DNA from: a virus
Length of the DNA stretch: 27,900 nt
Reading direction: 5' to 3' (one strand)
IMG/VR virus record: IMGVR_UViG_3300033553_000832
Location: 1 to 27,900 of that record
Below the pieces are notes generated by a model that was not told the DNA's origin, did not search any database, and saw nothing but the letters and a program-made list of their open reading frames with translations. The position numbers were made by a program, and so were the translations under genes. This document shows, in pieces, positions 3,031 to 26,813 of this stretch. Position 1 is the first letter of the stretch. Every line of letters starts with the position of its first letter.

Positions 3031-3620
3031 GTTCCAAGGCCTGGCAAAGCGCCGACAATACCGATCGAGGCGAAAAAATCGCCATCCGCAAGCGCCTTCT
3101 TGCGCAGATCGACGCCCCATCCGTTCTGGAATGCTACGCCGGAGACGGCGCCATCTGGCGCGAATGCTACCAGGGCCTGCCTTGCCTCGGCCTCGATCTC
3201 AAGCCGATCCGCGACGGCCGCACCCTTCTTCAGGTCGACAACCGCAAGTTTCTGCGCAGCGCCGACCTTTGCCGGTTCAATGTCTTCGACCTCGACGCCT
3301 ACGGCTCGCCCTGGCATCAGTGGCTCATCCTGCTTCACCGCCGCCCTTTCGCGGCCGGCGAAAAGGTCGCGGTCTTTCTCACCGACGGTCTCGATTTCAA
3401 GATGCGCATGAGCAGCATTCCCCAGGGACTGCGCCCCTATCTCGGCATCCCAGCCGGCATGGACATCCCCTGCCTGCACGCCCACCACGATTTCATCAAC
3501 GCCCTCGTGGTCGCACGCTCCACCCGCGCCGCCGGCCTGGATATCCTCGAGGCCCGCGAAGCGCAAAACCCGCGCGGAAACATGCGGTATTACGGTTTGA
3601 TATTAAAAAAAGTGTTGTAA
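3027..3620 (+). CDS. SAM-dependent methyltransferase-like protein with Trm1-type motif
   Basis: 197 residues; the start overlaps the previous stop (ATGA), which rejects earlier in-frame starts. VLECYAGDGAIWREC (33-47) is a class I motif I SAM-binding loop, GLDLKP (55-60) fits motif II, and FDLDAYGSPW (87-96) resembles the D-P-F-G-S/P catalytic motif IV of the tRNA guanine-26 methyltransferase Trm1. The C-terminal half (FINALVVARS, YYGLILKKVL) looks like closing beta strands of the fold. The target could be tRNA, another RNA or DNA. Only the fold and the SAM site are supported. The stop codon lies within the -35 of the next promoter. Confidence 0.65.
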   Translation: MSSKAWQSADNTDRGEKIAIRKRLLAQIDAPSVLECYAGDGAIWRECYQGLPCLGLDLKPIRDGRTLLQVDNRKFLRSADLCRFNVFDLDAYGSPWHQWLILLHRRPFAAGEKVAVFLTDGLDFKMRMSSIPQGLRPYLGIPAGMDIPCLHAHHDFINALVVARSTRAAGLDILEAREAQNPRGNMRYYGLILKKVL

Positions 3621-3642
3621 TTCCGGATAGTTGTGATATTAT
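3615..3642 (+). promoter_or_regulatory. Putative sigma-70-type promoter for the DUF6908-like gene
   Basis: TTGTAA at 3615-3620, a 16-base spacer, then TATTAT at 3637-3642 within a TGATATTATATAA stretch. The same -10 with the same spacing occurs upstream of the gene at 5273, which supports both. The -35 overlaps the stop codon of the methyltransferase-like gene. Confidence 0.6.
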
Positions 3643-3654
3643 ATAAACAACTTC

Positions 3655-3720
3655 GGGGGCAATCAGGCCCCACCTGATCCGCCATCCGTCCCAGGACGGA
3701 AAGAGCGAAAGGAGAACATC
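3655..3720 (+). promoter_or_regulatory. Structured leader RNA, copy 1
   Basis: Two hairpins separated by a conserved linker: GGGGC (3656-3660) with GCCCC (3667-3671), then ACCTGATCCGCCAT, then TCCGTC with GACGGA (3685-3700), followed by AAAGAGCGAAAGGAG holding the ribosome site. A second copy lies at 5210-5272 with different stem bases but kept pairing. Confidence 0.65.
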
Positions 3721-4128
3721 ATGGCCGCACTCAAAAAGATCAACCAGCCCGCCCGCAAGATCATGGATATCCTCACCCTCGACCTGCGCCATCCTGGCGA
3801 TCACAAGAAGATCGACAATACCGAAAAAACCTTCATCCCCGTCACCGTCGAGTGTATCGACCTGTGCGCCTCGGGTACGATCTTCTCGGTCTGCCATTAC
3901 GGCGAGCAAAACGGCGACCTGATGCGCGACCCCGAAATCACCTTTCTTCGCGACGAGCGCGGCGATTACTACCCCTTGAGCTTTCAGAACGACTATCTCG
4001 GCATCCATCGCGAATCGGTTCTTTTCTCGGACGGCAAGCCCTCCAGGTTCTACCCCTCCATCCAGAGGGACCAGGCCGTTTTCGTCGGCGCCTGGATGCG
4101 CAACATCAAGCAGCAGCAGGGCCTTTAA
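3721..4128 (+). CDS. DUF6908-like phage protein
   Basis: 135 residues starting at ATG 3721 behind a strong AAAGGAGA site. The central VCHYGEQNGDLMRDPEITF (about 57-75) matches my recollection of the signature of DUF6908 proteins from phages and integrated elements; the function of that family is not known to me. It has its own promoter and structured leader, so it is probably expressed independently of the late operon. No membrane segment or signal peptide is seen. Confidence 0.7.
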   Translation: MAALKKINQPARKIMDILTLDLRHPGDHKKIDNTEKTFIPVTVECIDLCASGTIFSVCHYGEQNGDLMRDPEITFLRDERGDYYPLSFQNDYLGIHRESVLFSDGKPSRFYPSIQRDQAVFVGAWMRNIKQQQGL

Positions 4129-4211
4129 TCATCCACGGGGGCCGCGCATCCGAACAACGCGGAAAGAGACATCCGTCCCGCAGGTCCCATCACCCCAAAG
4201 GAGGAAAAACC

Positions 4212-4937
4212 ATGCCCATCATCTACCCGCCCACCGGAAAAGCCCGCGAATACTGCGATCTCGCCGCCAACCTCTACAGCGGCTGCGCGCACGGCTGCCG
4301 CTACTGCTACGCCCCGGCGGCCCTTCGCCGCAAACCCGAAGCCTTTCGGCAGGCCGCCCCGCGCAAGGACGTGATCCGCCAGATCGAAAAAGAGGCCCCC
4401 TCCTACGCCGGGCGGGAGGTTCACCTCTGCTTCACCTGCGACCCCTACCAGGAGATCGAGCGCGAGCACCGCCTCACCCGCGCCACCCTGGAGATCTTCA
4501 CCCGTCACGGCGTGCGCGCCCGCGTCCTCACCAAGGGCGGCGTCCGCTGCCTGGAGGATATCGACCGGCTCAAGCAAAACCGCGCCATCGTCGGCGCCAC
4601 CCTCACCTTCCTGTCCGCAGAGGACTCCCTCGCCTGGGAGCCCGCCGCCGCCCCGCCCGCCGAGCGCCTGCGCGCCCTGGCCGATCTCCGCCGCGCCGGC
4701 GTCGAGACCTGGGCCAGCCTCGAGCCCGTCATCGACCCCGTCCAGAGCCTCGCCATCATCCGGCGCTATCACGGCTTTATCGACACCTTCAAGGTCGGCA
4801 AGTGGAACCACGCCAAGGACGCCGCCGCCATCGACTGGGAGAAGTTCGCCCGGCAGGCCGTGGAGCTGCTCGACTCCCTCGGCGCCCGCTACTACATCAA
4901 GGACGATCTCAGAAAACATCTCGAAGGGAGGGGCTAG
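4212..4937 (+). CDS. Radical SAM protein, DNA-repair-photolyase/SPL-like group
   Basis: 241 residues. C25-A-H-G-C29-R-Y-C32-Y is the CxxxCxxC cluster motif that binds the 4Fe-4S cluster and SAM. The surrounding N-x-Y-x-G-C-x-H-G-C-x-Y-C-Y, and downstream CFTCDPYQEIE, RVLTKGG and WASLEPVIDPVQSL, fit the COG1533 group that includes spore photoproduct lyase relatives. The start has a GGAGG site about seven bases away. Family members carry out radical chemistry, some on DNA lesions; substrate here is unknown. A predicted radical enzyme inside a late operon suggests a cargo gene acting on nucleic acid or a peptide. It is followed after one base by the next small gene. Confidence 0.88.
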   Translation: MPIIYPPTGKAREYCDLAANLYSGCAHGCRYCYAPAALRRKPEAFRQAAPRKDVIRQIEKEAPSYAGREVHLCFTCDPYQEIEREHRLTRATLEIFTRHGVRARVLTKGGVRCLEDIDRLKQNRAIVGATLTFLSAEDSLAWEPAAAPPAERLRALADLRRAGVETWASLEPVIDPVQSLAIIRRYHGFIDTFKVGKWNHAKDAAAIDWEKFARQAVELLDSLGARYYIKDDLRKHLEGRG

Positions 4938-17303: not shown

Positions 17304-19292
17304 ATGGCATCCTTCGAGTCAAGAGAAATCCGTACCATTCTGACCACGAAGAACCAGGGTCAGCGCGAACTGAGCCGCTTTCGCGGTGGACTCGACGGAG
17401 TCACCCGCGCCGCCCGCATGATGGGCATCGGCCTTGGCGCGGCGGGACTCGCCGCCTTCGCCCGCAGCGTGGCGGACGCCTCCATGAGGATGGAGAGCAT
17501 GCAGAACGCCCTCAAGGCCGTCACCGGCTCCACCGAAGGCGCCGCCGCAGAGATCGGCTTTGTGCGCGAGGAGGCCGAGCGCCTGGGGCTCGACCTGGAG
17601 ACCGCCGCCGATAGCTACACCAAACTAGCCGCAGCCTCCAAGGGCACCGCCATCGCGGGTGAGGAAACCCGCGATATTTTCGCCGCCGTGGCTGAGGCAT
17701 CCACCGTGCTGGGCCTCTCTGCCGCAGATACGACCGGGGCGCTCACCGCCATAGGGCAGATGATGAGCAAGGGCAACGTGCAGGCCGAGGAGCTCCGCGG
17801 CCAGCTCGGCGAGCGGATCCCCGGCGCTTTTCAGCTCGCCGCCCGGGCCATGGACGTGACTACGCAACAGCTCAACGACATGCTGGACCAGGGCAAGGTC
17901 CTAGCAGACGACTTCCTGCCGCGCTTCGCCCGGGAGCTGCGCGCCACCTACGCCGAGGCCCTGCCCGAGGCGGTCAACTCCTCCCGCGCGAGCATGAACC
18001 GCTTGCAGACCGCCATCTTCGGCCTCAAGACCGAGATCGGCGATTCGGGATTCATGGCCTCGATGAACGAGGGGATGAACCGTACCGCCGAGATTCTGGG
18101 AAGCCAGGAGATGAAAACCGGCATCCGGGCTTTCGGGGACTTTGTCGGGGTGATTTCCGACAACGGGCAAGTCCTCACAGATGTGCTCGACGGCATGGCT
18201 TATGCCTTTAAAGATGTCCGCGACCACATCCGGGATATCAAAAGCGATCTTTCTCCTATTCTTGAGAACAAGCTTGTCCAGTTCCTGATAGAAAAAGGCC
18301 CCAGAAACGCCCTGCCCCCTGGAATGGCAGCCCTGTCCGCCTATGGCGAAGCCCGCCGCCTCATCGATTCGCCCGAGGGCGCCGTGGCACGGGGCGGCAC
18401 GCGTGTGGCCATCGGCTCGGATACGGCTGGTTTTGGAGGCTACGCCGGCAGCGGCGCAGGGGGCTCCGGCGCTGAAGACGGCCCCGAGGCCGCCATTGAG
18501 GCCATGCGCGAGCGCCGATTCAACCAGCGCCGCCTCGAGGCCCAGTGGGACGAGGAGGACCGCGCAGCCAACCAGACCGCCTACGAGCGGCGCTGGCGCA
18601 TCCAGGCCGAGCAGGAGCAGGCCCTGCTGGAGCTGAAAAAAGAGTCCGCTTTCGAGCTGCGCATGTTCACCATGGAGCAGCAGAACGAGCAGCGCGAGTT
18701 CGAAGAAGAGCAGACCCTCATCAAGCTGGAGCGGCTGAAAAGAGAAGAAGAGGAGCGCGCCCGCATCATATCCGAGGGCGAAACCTACGTGATGAACATG
18801 CGCCGCGGCAATATAGGCATGGCCCTGGGCCTGATGCAGCAGTTCGCAGGAGAGTCCAAGGCCATCGCCATCGCGGGACTGGCCATCCAGAAGGGCCTGG
18901 CGATATCGGAGACCTACATTAACACTCAGTCCGCCGCCGCCGCCGCTCTCGCCCCGCCGCCCCTGGGCCTCGGCCCGGCCCTCGGTGAGCCTCTGGCAGC
19001 CGCCATCGAAACGCAGGGATATATCCGCATGGGCCTGATCGCCGCCACGGGCCTGATGGATGGCGCGCGGATCGCCGGGAGCAAAAGCAGCGGCTTCGGC
19101 TACGGCGGAGGCACGCCGAACAGCCCCATCGTCACCCAGACTCCCGCGCCGTCCGGCCCGCAGGACATCACCATCCGCCTCATCACGGACGCCAAAGGCG
19201 CGTTCACCGCCGAGGCCGTGGAGGAAACCCTGATCCCCCACCTGAATCGGGCCAACCGCCGCGGGGTCAAAATCATCGTGGAGACGCAATAA
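17304..19292 (+). CDS. Tail tape measure protein
   Basis: 662 residues. The N-terminal third has the tape-measure signature: ADASMRMESMQNALKAVTGS, FVREEAERLGLDLETAADSYTKLAAASKGT and LSAADTTGALTAIGQMMSKGNVQAEELRGQLGERIPGA (to about residue 180). A charged helical coiled-coil lies at about 405-500 (QAEQEQALLELKKES, EEEQTLIKLERLKREEEE), and hydrophobic Ala/Gly-rich stretches at about 510-590. It sets tail length and helps DNA entry. At roughly 0.15 nm per residue the tail would be near 100 nm, shorter than lambda's. Start ATG 17304 is five bases after the GT stop. Confidence 0.93.
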   Translation: MASFESREIRTILTTKNQGQRELSRFRGGLDGVTRAARMMGIGLGAAGLAAFARSVADASMRMESMQNALKAVTGSTEGAAAEIGFVREEAERLGLDLETAADSYTKLAAASKGTAIAGEETRDIFAAVAEASTVLGLSAADTTGALTAIGQMMSKGNVQAEELRGQLGERIPGAFQLAARAMDVTTQQLNDMLDQGKVLADDFLPRFARELRATYAEALPEAVNSSRASMNRLQTAIFGLKTEIGDSGFMASMNEGMNRTAEILGSQEMKTGIRAFGDFVGVISDNGQVLTDVLDGMAYAFKDVRDHIRDIKSDLSPILENKLVQFLIEKGPRNALPPGMAALSAYGEARRLIDSPEGAVARGGTRVAIGSDTAGFGGYAGSGAGGSGAEDGPEAAIEAMRERRFNQRRLEAQWDEEDRAANQTAYERRWRIQAEQEQALLELKKESAFELRMFTMEQQNEQREFEEEQTLIKLERLKREEEERARIISEGETYVMNMRRGNIGMALGLMQQFAGESKAIAIAGLAIQKGLAISETYINTQSAAAAALAPPPLGLGPALGEPLAAAIETQGYIRMGLIAATGLMDGARIAGSKSSGFGYGGGTPNSPIVTQTPAPSGPQDITIRLITDAKGAFTAEAVEETLIPHLNRANRRGVKIIVETQ

Positions 19293-20048
19293 ATGTACCA
19301 GCCCGCCGTGCTCTACACCGAATACGCCGGCGCCGTCTCCGTGACGGCCACCGATTCCCTCGCGGACTCCGATCCCGAGGACGTGCTGCTCGCCACCGAG
19401 GACACCTGGTGGGCGCCCGCGAACCAGTCGGGCTCCAAATCCCTGATATTCGACTTCGGCGCCGGCTACTACTACAACGCCATCGCCCTGCTGGGGCGCG
19501 ATCTGGACGGCGTGACGGTGGAGATCCGCGGATCGACCGACAATTTCTCCGCCAGCGATTTCCAGATCAAGGCCCCCACGGCGCTCTCCGCTCCGGTCAA
19601 CGCCGGCTGGCTCATCGCTCCGGGCTCCACTGTGCGCTATCACAAGGTGATATTTTCCGGCTTCTCCAGCGACTTTCGTGTGGCGCACGTCTGCCTCGAC
19701 CAGATCCGTCCGCTCCCCTACCTGAGCGAGGATTTCGACCCGGACGGCTTCGACGCCGCGGGCGAGCAGCTCGTCTCCTCCTCGGGCGTCTACGTGGGCT
19801 CGACCCTGCAGCGCACCATGCGCGAGCTGCCCCTGGATCTGGGGCAGGTGACCGACAGCGAATACGCCATCATCGCCCACTGGGCCGAAAACCGCCTCCG
19901 GCGACTGCTGCCGTACTTCTTTTTGCCTGAGCAGTGGACCTACGACACGGCCTATTTCGGATGGAACAAAGACGGACGATTCAGCGCCCCGCTCAAGGAC
20001 GGAGTACGCACGGTGGCGCCCATGACCTTTGTTACGAGGGCTCTCTGA
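19293..20048 (+). CDS. Tail protein downstream of tape measure, distal-tail-like
   Basis: 251 residues, beginning right after the tape measure stop (TAA then ATG). The sequence is beta-rich, with SKSLIFDFGAGYYYNAIALLGRDLDGVTVEIRGSTD (about 48-83) suggesting a galactose-binding-like sandwich, and a C-terminal SEYAIIAHWAENRLRRLLPYFFLPEQ. The position matches lambda M/L or distal tail proteins that close the tube. No catalytic motif is seen. It is coupled to the next gene by near overlap. Confidence 0.68.
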   Translation: MYQPAVLYTEYAGAVSVTATDSLADSDPEDVLLATEDTWWAPANQSGSKSLIFDFGAGYYYNAIALLGRDLDGVTVEIRGSTDNFSASDFQIKAPTALSAPVNAGWLIAPGSTVRYHKVIFSGFSSDFRVAHVCLDQIRPLPYLSEDFDPDGFDAAGEQLVSSSGVYVGSTLQRTMRELPLDLGQVTDSEYAIIAHWAENRLRRLLPYFFLPEQWTYDTAYFGWNKDGRFSAPLKDGVRTVAPMTFVTRAL

Positions 20049-23760: not shown

Positions 23761-25353
23761 ATGGCCTACCAATCCCAGTACACCGGAGCGCAGATCGACG
23801 CCGCCGTCGGCAGCCTCGTCGGCACCCTCAACAGTATCGGCACCGCAGGCGCGGCCGGCTTCGGCGTGGGCGTCGCCCCGCCCGAGGCCGTATTCGACGG
23901 CATGACGCCTCTTTTCGGCTACACCGACCCCACGCACGCCAATTACGGAAACTACCAGTTCTCCGACGGCTCGGTGATGTGCTGGATCCCCAAGTTTTAC
24001 TACAAGATCGGCACGGGGAGCAACGGCCTGGCCGTCAACGTGACCGATGTCAAGGGGGTCAAGACCTACGCCACCCGCTATGAGGCCGAGGCGGCGGGGT
24101 ACGCGCTGCACCGGGCGTTTATCGACGGCGGAGACGAAAAGGACGGCTTCTTCATCGACAAGTACATGGCCAGCAAAAACGCCAAGGGCGCGGGGTTCAT
24201 CGCCTCTTCCATCGCCGGGGGGCTGCCGATCTCGACGCACGCCGACCACAACCCCATCGCGGATCTGACCGCCTGCGCCGGCAATTATTATTACGAGGCG
24301 ATCAACGCGGCCCATGCCCGCGACGGCGCGGACGGTGCGGTCAACGCAAGCAGCCGCTTCCATGTGGTCTCCCGCTTCCAGTGGGCGGCCCTGGCGCTGC
24401 TGTCGCTGGCTCACGGGCAGGCGGCGAGCTCCGCCACGTACTGCGCCTGGTACGACGCGGGGGGCTCGACCAATTTTCCCAAGGGGTGCAACAACAACGC
24501 CCTGGGGGACACCAACGACGCGGAGGTCGCCTACGTCTCCGACGGCTACAGCAACGCCGCCAAGACCGGCAGCGGCACCCCGTTTGCCAAAACCACCCAC
24601 AACGGGCAGGCCTGCGGGGTGGCGGACGTGAACGGGCTGATGTACGACCTGAACATCGGGATCACCTGCATCGCGACCGCCGTCAGCATCACCGCCGCCA
24701 GCCAGGCCAACCCCTGCCAGATCACCGCCGCAGGGCACGGCCTGACCACCGGCGATCCCGTTATGATCACCTCGGTGGGCGGCATGACGGAGATCAACGA
24801 CAAGATCTTCGCCGCCACCGTGGTCGATGCCAACAATTTCACCCTGGACGGAGTGGACTCCAGCGCGTTTGCCGCCTACACCTCCGGAGGATCGGCCACC
24901 GTAGGCACGTTCTACGCCGCCAAAGAGGCGACGGCGATGCGGGATTTCACCGCCGGCAACACCCTGGCCACCGATCACTGGGGCGCGGCGGGCGTAGCGG
25001 CGCTGATGGACGCCATCGCCCCGGCCTTCGAGACCGCCTATCCGAACAACGGCTTCGCACAGAGGATGGGCGACGGGGCGGGGCAGGTCCTCTCCGAAGC
25101 CGCCAGCGGCAACGGGTGGCTGCTCACCGGCCTGGGGCTCCCCAAGGATGCGGCCGGAATCTCCCCCTCGGGAACAAACCTCTTCGGCAGCGATTATTTC
25201 TATCAGTACATCCGGAATGAACTGTTCCTGCGCTCGTCCCTGAATTGGAACTATGGGTCGACTGCGGGTGTCTGGGGGCTCCACTTGGGCCTCAGCCGGA
25301 CGGTCTCGGGCGACGTTGTGGGGTTTCGGGCCGCCTGTTACCCTGGGGCCTGA
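23761..25353 (+). CDS. DGR target protein: tail receptor-binding protein with C-type-lectin-like variable domain
   Basis: 530 residues. A short N-terminal helix/coil (1-45) is followed by a sulfatase-modifying-factor/C-lectin-like scaffold from about 75 (MCWIPKFYYKIG, FIDKYMASK, SRFHVVSRFQWAALALL). An FCCH-like insert lies at about 305-381 (ANPCQITAAGHGLTTGDPVMI... FTLDGVDSSAFAAYTSGG). The C terminus (about 492-527) is the variable region: NWNYGSTAGVWGL...GFRAACYPGA, the usual layout of DGR-diversified lectin folds. It would bind the host receptor at the tail tip. It is followed by the Avd-RT gene. Family call firm; receptor unknown. Confidence 0.9.
   Translation: MAYQSQYTGAQIDAAVGSLVGTLNSIGTAGAAGFGVGVAPPEAVFDGMTPLFGYTDPTHANYGNYQFSDGSVMCWIPKFYYKIGTGSNGLAVNVTDVKGVKTYATRYEAEAAGYALHRAFIDGGDEKDGFFIDKYMASKNAKGAGFIASSIAGGLPISTHADHNPIADLTACAGNYYYEAINAAHARDGADGAVNASSRFHVVSRFQWAALALLSLAHGQAASSATYCAWYDAGGSTNFPKGCNNNALGDTNDAEVAYVSDGYSNAAKTGSGTPFAKTTHNGQACGVADVNGLMYDLNIGITCIATAVSITAASQANPCQITAAGHGLTTGDPVMITSVGGMTEINDKIFAATVVDANNFTLDGVDSSAFAAYTSGGSATVGTFYAAKEATAMRDFTAGNTLATDHWGAAGVAALMDAIAPAFETAYPNNGFAQRMGDGAGQVLSEAASGNGWLLTGLGLPKDAAGISPSGTNLFGSDYFYQYIRNELFLRSSLNWNYGSTAGVWGLHLGLSRTVSGDVVGFRAACYPGA
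25236..25345 (+). other. DGR variable region (VR) with probable IMH at its 3' end
   Basis: Codons for N-W-N-Y-G-S-T-A-G-V-W-G-L-H-L-G-L-S-R-T-V-S-G-D-V-V-G-F-R-A-A. Positions that are Asn (AAC) in typical template repeats read Y, T, G, H, G, L, V, G, D, V here, while the G-, W-, R- and F-codons between them keep the frame of the family. GGGTTTCGGGCCGCC (25320-25334) is the invariant GC-rich end expected of the initiation-of-mutagenic-homing site. No matching template repeat was found in the window. Confidence 0.75.
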
Positions 25354-25378: not shown

Positions 25379-26326
25379 ATGAGCAATATCCACGCCGAAG
25401 CGCAGCTGTGCCGCAAGTTCACTCAATTCGCCAAGCTGCTCAATATTTATCTCAATCATTTCCCGAAGGCGGAGCGGTACGCGCTGGCGAACCGCATCCG
25501 CAATTCGGCCTACGAGGTCTACGATCTGATCACCGAGGCCCAGAAGCGCTACATCAAAAAGACGACCCTCACCAACCTGGACATCGCCCACGAGCGGCTG
25601 CGCATGCAGATCTACCTGGCCTATGAGCTGGGGCACTTCAGGTTCAAGGATGGCCGCAAGGGCGACGACGCCGCGGCGCTGGAGAGACACAGGTACACGA
25701 CTCTGGGCGAGATGGTGGATGAGCTGGGCCGGATGATCGAGCACAAGATCAAGGACGAGCGGCTGCTCAATGTCATGATGATGTACGCCGATCACGAGGA
25801 GCCGGTGGGGATCCCCATCGGAAACCTGCTCAGCCAGCTCTATGCGCTGATCTACCTCAACCCCGTAGACCACTACGTCAAGCGCGGCCTGGGCATCGCG
25901 TATTATGCCCGCTATGTGGACGACATGCTGATTATGGGCGTCAGCCGCGAGCAGGCCGTCTTTTTGCGCGATCGCATCGGGGAGTTCCTGGCCGAGCACC
26001 TGCACCTGGAGTATTCGAAGACGAGCATCGCCAAGGTGCGGCGGGGCGTGAACTTCGTCGGCTACCGCACCTGGCGCCGCTTTCGCTTCACCCGCAAGCA
26101 TAGTCTCTACAAATTCCGCCGCGCCGTCAAAAAAGGCGATGCGGCCGCAGTGGTCTCGATCCTGGGGCACGCCAAAAATACACAATCCCTTCCGTACCTG
26201 GTGCGGACCATCATGGAGGCCGAACATGACCAAAATCTACCGCTGTCAAATCGCGTCCGACGAGCACACCACCTACCGCCCCCAGGGCACCGAAGAGGCC
26301 CCCGTTCAGGAGCTGTGCACCATTAA
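25379..26326 (+). CDS. Avd-like domain fused in frame to C-terminal half of a DGR reverse transcriptase (defective)
   Basis: 315 residues from ATG 25379 (GAGGGGGTG upstream). Residues 1-120 have the four-helix Avd pattern (FAKLLNIYLNHFPKAERYAL, LITEAQKRYIKKTTLTNLDI, LRMQIYLAYELG, GEMVDELGRMI). From about 121 the text is RT: KIKDERLLNVM, IPIGNLLSQLYALIYL (145-160, the DGR-type IGxxxSQ motif 4), YARYVDDMLI (176-185, catalytic motif 5), NFVGYRTWRRF. RT motifs 1-3, including the first catalytic Asp, are absent, as is the avd-rt spacer that normally holds the template repeat. Polymerase activity is therefore not expected. The last 34 codons overlap the next gene. Confidence 0.88.
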   Translation: MSNIHAEAQLCRKFTQFAKLLNIYLNHFPKAERYALANRIRNSAYEVYDLITEAQKRYIKKTTLTNLDIAHERLRMQIYLAYELGHFRFKDGRKGDDAAALERHRYTTLGEMVDELGRMIEHKIKDERLLNVMMMYADHEEPVGIPIGNLLSQLYALIYLNPVDHYVKRGLGIAYYARYVDDMLIMGVSREQAVFLRDRIGEFLAEHLHLEYSKTSIAKVRRGVNFVGYRTWRRFRFTRKHSLYKFRRAVKKGDAAAVVSILGHAKNTQSLPYLVRTIMEAEHDQNLPLSNRVRRAHHLPPPGHRRGPRSGAVHH

Positions 26327-26657
26327 CGGCTTCACCTACTTCAGCGGCCCGGACGAGCTGCCGCCCCAGCCGCCCCAGATCGCGGCAGAGCCTGTCATCA
26401 TGGATGACGCCCTGCGCGAGCAGATCAAGGCCGCAAGCCCCCAGTGCCGGCTGATCGCGGAGCGCATGCAGCAGCGCATCAAAGAGCGCTACCCGAGAAC
26501 CGAGGACGAGCTCTTTCTCGCCCGCATCAGTATCGGACAGATCATGGGCACCTACGCCATGAGCCCCGAAGAGCAGCAGGAGGTCGGCGAGTATCAGGCG
26601 CACGTCGAATCCGTCCGCCAATGGGGACGAGACCAGCGGGCGGAGCTGGGGCTGTAG
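26226..26657 (+). CDS. Hypothetical protein downstream of DGR, tail-fibre-assembly-like position
   Basis: 143 residues; ATG 26226 lies inside the end of the Avd-RT frame (101-base overlap) with GGAGG about nine bases upstream. The N-terminal half (TTYRPQGTEEAPVQELCTINGFTYFSG, then PPQPPQI) is the kind of short beta unit plus Pro linker seen in phage fibre-associated proteins. The C-terminal half is helical (RLIAERMQQRIKERY, LARISIGQIMGTY, EVGEYQAHVESVRQWGRDQ). It could be a chaperone or partner of the target protein; no named family. It is the last phage gene. Confidence 0.65.
   Translation: MTKIYRCQIASDEHTTYRPQGTEEAPVQELCTINGFTYFSGPDELPPQPPQIAAEPVIMDDALREQIKAASPQCRLIAERMQQRIKERYPRTEDELFLARISIGQIMGTYAMSPEEQQEVGEYQAHVESVRQWGRDQRAELGL

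Positions 26658-26736: not shown

Positions 26737-26813
<77 letters not shown>

Follow-up and report, generated by a model that had tools for sequence, protein, structure and literature searches.

Diversity-generating retroelements (DGRs) are usually described as diversity engines that are retained. The window, by which we mean the whole stretch of 27,900 nucleotides analysed here, contains a single open reading frame (ORF) on the + strand, from 25379 to 26326, in which a truncated Avd, the DGR accessory protein, continues without a change of frame into a DGR reverse transcriptase (RT) that lacks its N-terminal part. The locus raises the question of whether this frame encodes a working fusion protein or is what a deletion left of a DGR.

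Identity of the fused reading frame

The ORF encodes 315 aa from an ATG start with no internal stop, and its composition was established from the ORF reading, Pfam, PHROG and the alignment of relatives. The original prediction had assigned residues 1-120 to Avd and residues 121-300 to the palm and thumb of a DGR RT bearing IGNLLSQ and YVDD, and profile searches bore out both assignments. Residues 1-120 (25379-25738, + strand) share 78% identity with the Avd of an intact relative, L003, across residues 1-118. Pfam bAvd matched residues 12-122 of the fused ORF with an E-value of 5e-13, above the bAvd cut-off, and the PHROG family 'Avd protein of DGR' matched residues 4-85 (1e-14). This Avd is incomplete, with RT sequence standing where a normal Avd has its C-terminal ~14 residues.

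The RT remnant (25739-26326, + strand) takes in the final portion of the palm, including motif 4 (GIPIGNLLSQ), together with YVDD and the thumb. Pfam RVT_1 matched residues 142-230 of the fused ORF with an E-value of 1e-6, entering at position 120 of the 205 in the profile, the PHROG reverse transcriptase family matched residues 118-253 (6e-42), and our local RT profile covered the remnant at positions 151-336 of 340. The SQ motif of motif 4, (I/V/L)GxxxSQ, is present as IGNLLSQ at residues 147-153 (25817-25837), and YVDD lies at residues 179-182 (25913-25924). The best match to the remnant among solved structures was the RT chain of 8ub7 from residue 164 onward (E 2e-20), which we take to be the RT of the BPP-1 DGR; the match to BPP-1 brt was 41% over residues 119-250. 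The full set of seven RT motifs, with the aspartates of both motif 3/A and YxDD, is lacking, since the remnant starts just before motif 4 and every preceding motif is missing, including LDIRKFF with the catalytic Asp of motif 3/A. The structure predicted for the fused protein was of low confidence (pLDDT 62, pTM 0.40).

Intact relatives and the deletion junction

At related loci in IMG/VR and GTDB, avd and rt are separate genes, and only separate avd and rt genes were found among ~600 relatives of the host. The nearest intact relatives are L003 (IMGVR 3300031485_000072), L004 (3300029199_000006), L006 (3300035548_000461) and L007, of which the first three are from uncultivated phages. All four have the order target, avd, template repeat (TR), rt, downstream gene, which they show to be that of the ancestor as well. 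Their identity to the window is 67-73% in the target, 73-78% in Avd, 60-62% in RT and 54-62% in the downstream gene. It had been proposed to look for an intact avd-TR-rt at the same site in related prophages, and the relatives do have one, between the same target and downstream gene. The window thus has the gene order of L003, L004 and L006, but these possess a full avd, TR and rt, whereas the window has only parts of avd and rt in that place, as in an inactivated DGR. The motifs preceding motif 4 and the avd-rt spacer, which had been noted as gone, are all carried by the relatives at this position.

In alignment with the intact relatives, residue 120 (base 25738) is the last of the Avd part, which closes with ...LGRMI; the RT part opens with (I)EHKIKDERL, where the relatives read ...DIRKFFYSIDRSIL.xLIERKIKDxRL. 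At the nucleotide level, the relatives have ATGATCGGCGGCTGG in avd and CTGATCGAGCGCAAG in rt, and the window has ATGATCGAGCACAAG. The predicted junction at about base 25739 agrees with this alignment to within the hexamer TGATCG (25734-25739, + strand), which is common to the avd end and to the RT entry point of the relatives and is the probable microhomology behind the deletion. The length absent from the window, measured against ten relatives, is 762-864 nt. Since the nearest intact relative is just ~62% identical in RT, both the microhomology and the exact deletion length are approximations from alignment. A search of IMG/VR with a degenerate DNA pattern for the window's own junction gave no match, that is, no sibling sharing it.

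The comparison with intact relatives supports the earlier proposal that a single deletion took the Avd tail, the TR and the RT fingers and froze the DGR while keeping the frame. We consider it very probable that the ORF is the deletion scar of a once-active phage DGR. One deletion of ~770 nt, probably through the 6-nt microhomology, would have fused the avd end to rt just upstream of motif 4. Going by known RT chemistry, removal of the TR, the RT fingers and the motif-A aspartate would leave neither reverse transcription nor a template for it.

The same junction would appear if the contig had skipped about 770 nt that are actually present, and the assembly is indeed a draft (68 contigs, 87% complete, with ~13% of the genome missing). 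However, the sequence shared at the junction is ~6 nt, far under any assembly k-mer; a collapse of the TR/VR repeat would have deleted avd, yet avd is present; and similar but distinct junctions occur in many independent assemblies. Such an artefact is extremely unlikely.

The target gene and its lost template

Upstream of the scar lies the DGR target gene (23761-25353, + strand), encoding a 530-aa tail/adhesin-type protein with PHROG tail-protein matches, whose counterparts in the intact phage DGRs occupy the same position. Its C-terminal variable region (VR; 25222-25338, + strand), recognised by comparison with the TR of L003 and by a DNA search of the assembly, has lost its template. The VR differs from the L003 TR at 18 of the 28 TR adenines and at 14 of the 89 other bases (Fisher p=2e-6). 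The target therefore carries a signature of past adenine mutagenesis, and its retention in the VR indicates that mutagenesis acted, and the DGR worked, before the deletion. In the relatives, TR/VR mismatches are overwhelmingly at TR adenines, for example 15/15 in L003, and in L003, L004 and L006 they are confined to them. The TR was found between avd and rt in 17/17 relatives examined. A TR with adenine-specific mismatches is absent from both the locus and the assembly of the window, where a DNA search with the VR matched the VR alone. The VR would thus be frozen at its last variant.

Two other features of the targets were observed. In the window target, residues about 303-384 form a domain of the E1_FCCH type. 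It seems to be missing from several relatives, whose matches are split at 302/384, and may have been gained or lost between phages. In L011, two target-like paralogues (302-1804 and 3280-4842) lie upstream of a single DGR.

A frozen VR presupposes that no other DGR supplies a full RT and TR in trans, and there are precedents, as in Treponema (PMC4891356), for DGRs whose targets lie at a distance. No second DGR-type RT was found in the assembly, in which about 13% of the genome is missing, and it lacks a TR-like copy of the VR. Contig C16 carries two more RT genes that could be read over their whole length, both of the group II intron type (TPQGG..SPLLAN). There is also a short RT fragment on C28, and the portion of it that is present shows no DGR motif. 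Similarly, the records of other scars, on contigs of up to 64 kb, contain no further full RT. Continued activity in trans is exceedingly improbable.

Prophage context

Genes for terminase, portal, protease, major capsid, tape-measure and tail are present. The phage looks otherwise complete; among the parts checked, the DGR alone is broken. The prophage is bounded on the right by the 3' end of a tRNA-Arg gene (26737-26813, - strand), which is probably the attachment site. On contig C61, at about 18536-19784 (L180:8537-9785), a tyrosine integrase adjoins a partial tRNA-Arg 3' end, which differs from the right boundary of the window's prophage by one mismatch in about 46 nt, and a CII-type regulator is also on this contig. 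C61 probably holds the other end of the prophage.

Judged by major capsid protein, the closest phage is L162 (68%). Nothing in its record or in those of other capsid relatives matches the fused protein, and none of the capsid relatives tested for the target carries it. It is likely that the block of target, DGR and downstream gene has been exchanged between phages.

Recurrent loss in related loci

Sampling was made blind to the RT by searching IMG/VR with the downstream gene, merging near-copies and keeping loci with both target and downstream gene. Among the matches listed, the best 80 for each of three related queries, there were 89 distinct loci, 62 with a full RT and 27 without, a proportion of 30% that is valid for this sequence neighbourhood only. 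When all searches were pooled, 146 distinct loci were among the matches listed and 31, the window included, were without a full RT: one has a frameshifted RT (L114), 16 including the window have remnants, and 14 have none or other genes. Target and downstream gene are kept at every scar, and the junctions differ between scars.

In a phylogeny built from the downstream protein, the 16 remnant-bearing loci are dispersed among intact loci and need 15 changes, at least 11 of them forced by well-supported branches. This number and this scatter indicate that loss occurred many times, and the relatives would thus have undergone the same kind of loss as the window, with different junctions. IMG/VR loci are fragments of uncultivated viruses and some scars may be assembly errors, but such error is unlikely as a general cause since the junctions differ across independent assemblies.

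Several loci show other arrangements. L199 (3879-4501) and L216 (3288-4408) have a full avd and no rt; L199 also has a TR-like repeat, and in L216 an unrelated stretch occupies the place of rt. In L229 (3900-4048) the downstream gene follows the target after 24 nt and the target end is asparagine-rich and TR-like (WALNLNNVRANANNGVG); this could be a VR/TR recombination that deleted the DGR in a single step. In L105 (3100-4040) a deletion fuses the target VR straight to RT, before SFACRKG, with avd and TR gone and the target end altered. In L106 (2768-3568), from an Omnitrophota MAG, an RT tail from PIGNLLSQ is joined in frame to an unrelated ORF, and this contig is possibly chimeric. Apparent frameshifts, at about motif 5 or beyond it, divide the RT of L113, L114 and L304; these are either further inactivated DGRs or sequencing errors.

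Reading frame across the scars

L112 and L116 were the first relatives in which further fusions were recognised, an Avd start running in frame into an RT tail. Among scars in which a beginning of avd and a tail of RT are both legible, the two frames agree at the junction in 8 of 11 (the window, L303/L234, L391, L252, L390, L112, L116 and L347), and are out of register in L314, L250 and L197. L116 has ATC in place of the avd start, and L347, in frame at its junction, has a 1-nt frameshift after it. Against a chance expectation of one third, the excess has a binomial p of about 0.009, a value to be read with the junction frames having been judged partly by eye and the window itself having been picked for being fused. 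Among the scars with an avd start codon and at least one possible open frame, the avd frame is open through to the start of the downstream gene in 10/10; the chance of this is (1/3)^3 x (2/3)^4, about 0.007, or 0.02 without the window. Together with the modest frame bias, this suggests that selection acts to carry translation on into the downstream gene. Deletions may be favoured when no stop interrupts the frame between the avd start and the downstream gene, since translation of that gene is then sustained, an interpretation for which the statistics are modest.

The frame bias was also considered as proof of a working fusion and rejected, since junctions vary and some scars are out of frame. 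That the Avd-RT fusion works as a non-catalytic protein, for example by binding RNA, the target mRNA or the RT of another DGR, would fit the open frame, the existence of several in-frame fusions and the intact conserved residues of both parts: at columns conserved among relatives, the fused ORF deviates at 0 of 41 in RT and 1 of 33 in Avd. The intact columns indicate either that the deletion is recent relative to the divergence from the relatives or that the remnant is still constrained, and their lack of decay is equally expected of a functional fusion. Against such a protein, all the junctions differ and the fusions keep 10 to 120 residues of Avd and ~20 to ~190 of RT, with no protein common to them; in three scars the frames are out of register, and at further loci no remnant survives. 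The role originally suggested, with the RNA or RT of a second DGR, found no partner, neither a second DGR RT nor a TR being present in the assembly, and the junction is not conserved in relatives. We regard a working fusion as very unlikely and a deletion scar as the better account of the ORF.

The downstream gene

The conserved downstream gene (26226-26657, + strand) encodes a protein of 143 aa with no Pfam or PHROG match and overlaps the RT tail by ~100 nt; it follows rt in the aligned relatives, with 44-62% identity. In 399 genomes of one order, its single match was the query's own source. Its Shine-Dalgarno sequence, GGAGG (26215-26219, + strand), lies within the RT remnant, and a purine-rich motif of this kind precedes the downstream gene in 14/16 scars and in most intact loci. 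This location could alone explain why deletions spare the RT tail. The RT tail has probably been retained for the ribosome-binding site and start codon of the downstream gene, both of which lie inside it, and not for a working fusion protein.

Comparison with known systems

The locus is a module of the same kind as the DGR of Bordetella phage BPP-1 (bRT, Avd, TR, VR), with target, avd, TR and rt as its parts, and the window target likewise has a VR-type C-terminus. Unlike the BPP-1 DGR, the window is without TR, Avd tail, RT fingers and motif-A aspartate, its avd and rt are fused, and it cannot work in cis. Inactivated DGRs with RTs cut by a nonsense mutation, an insertion element or a frameshift were described in DiGReF (PMC3521204). 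These resemble the window in having a recently broken RT beside a target with an adenine-mutation signature in its VR, but they retain their VR/TR pairs, whereas in the window a single deletion also took the TR and left avd and rt as one continuous frame. In Treponema denticola, targets with A-type variation remain after loss of RT and TR (PMC4891356). The window is alike in that its target outlasts both, but the Treponema losses show no avd-rt fusion scars and no phage operon context, whereas the window and its relatives are phage loci with partial-deletion remnants. In the part of the literature covered, we found neither an account of deletion scars that join avd to rt in frame nor one of repeated loss from a single phage operon. 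Taken singly, the loss in the window is of an ordinary kind and concerns a known element; the interest lies in the recurrence and the frame bias.

Based on these observations, we hypothesise, at somewhat below even chances, that this phage family routinely uses and then locks its DGRs, the mutagenic engine that separates the host-recognition gene from its downstream neighbour being repeatedly deleted and selection for continued translation producing in-frame Avd-RT scars. An annotation of 'Avd-RT fusion' can denote a scar rather than a new enzyme. Within one phage adhesin family, sampled through the neighbouring gene and not by way of the RT, about three loci in ten are without a full RT and have kept the target. 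The scars are a fossil record of when and how phages cease to diversify a receptor-binding protein, and this record lends itself to tests of cost, timing and host range.
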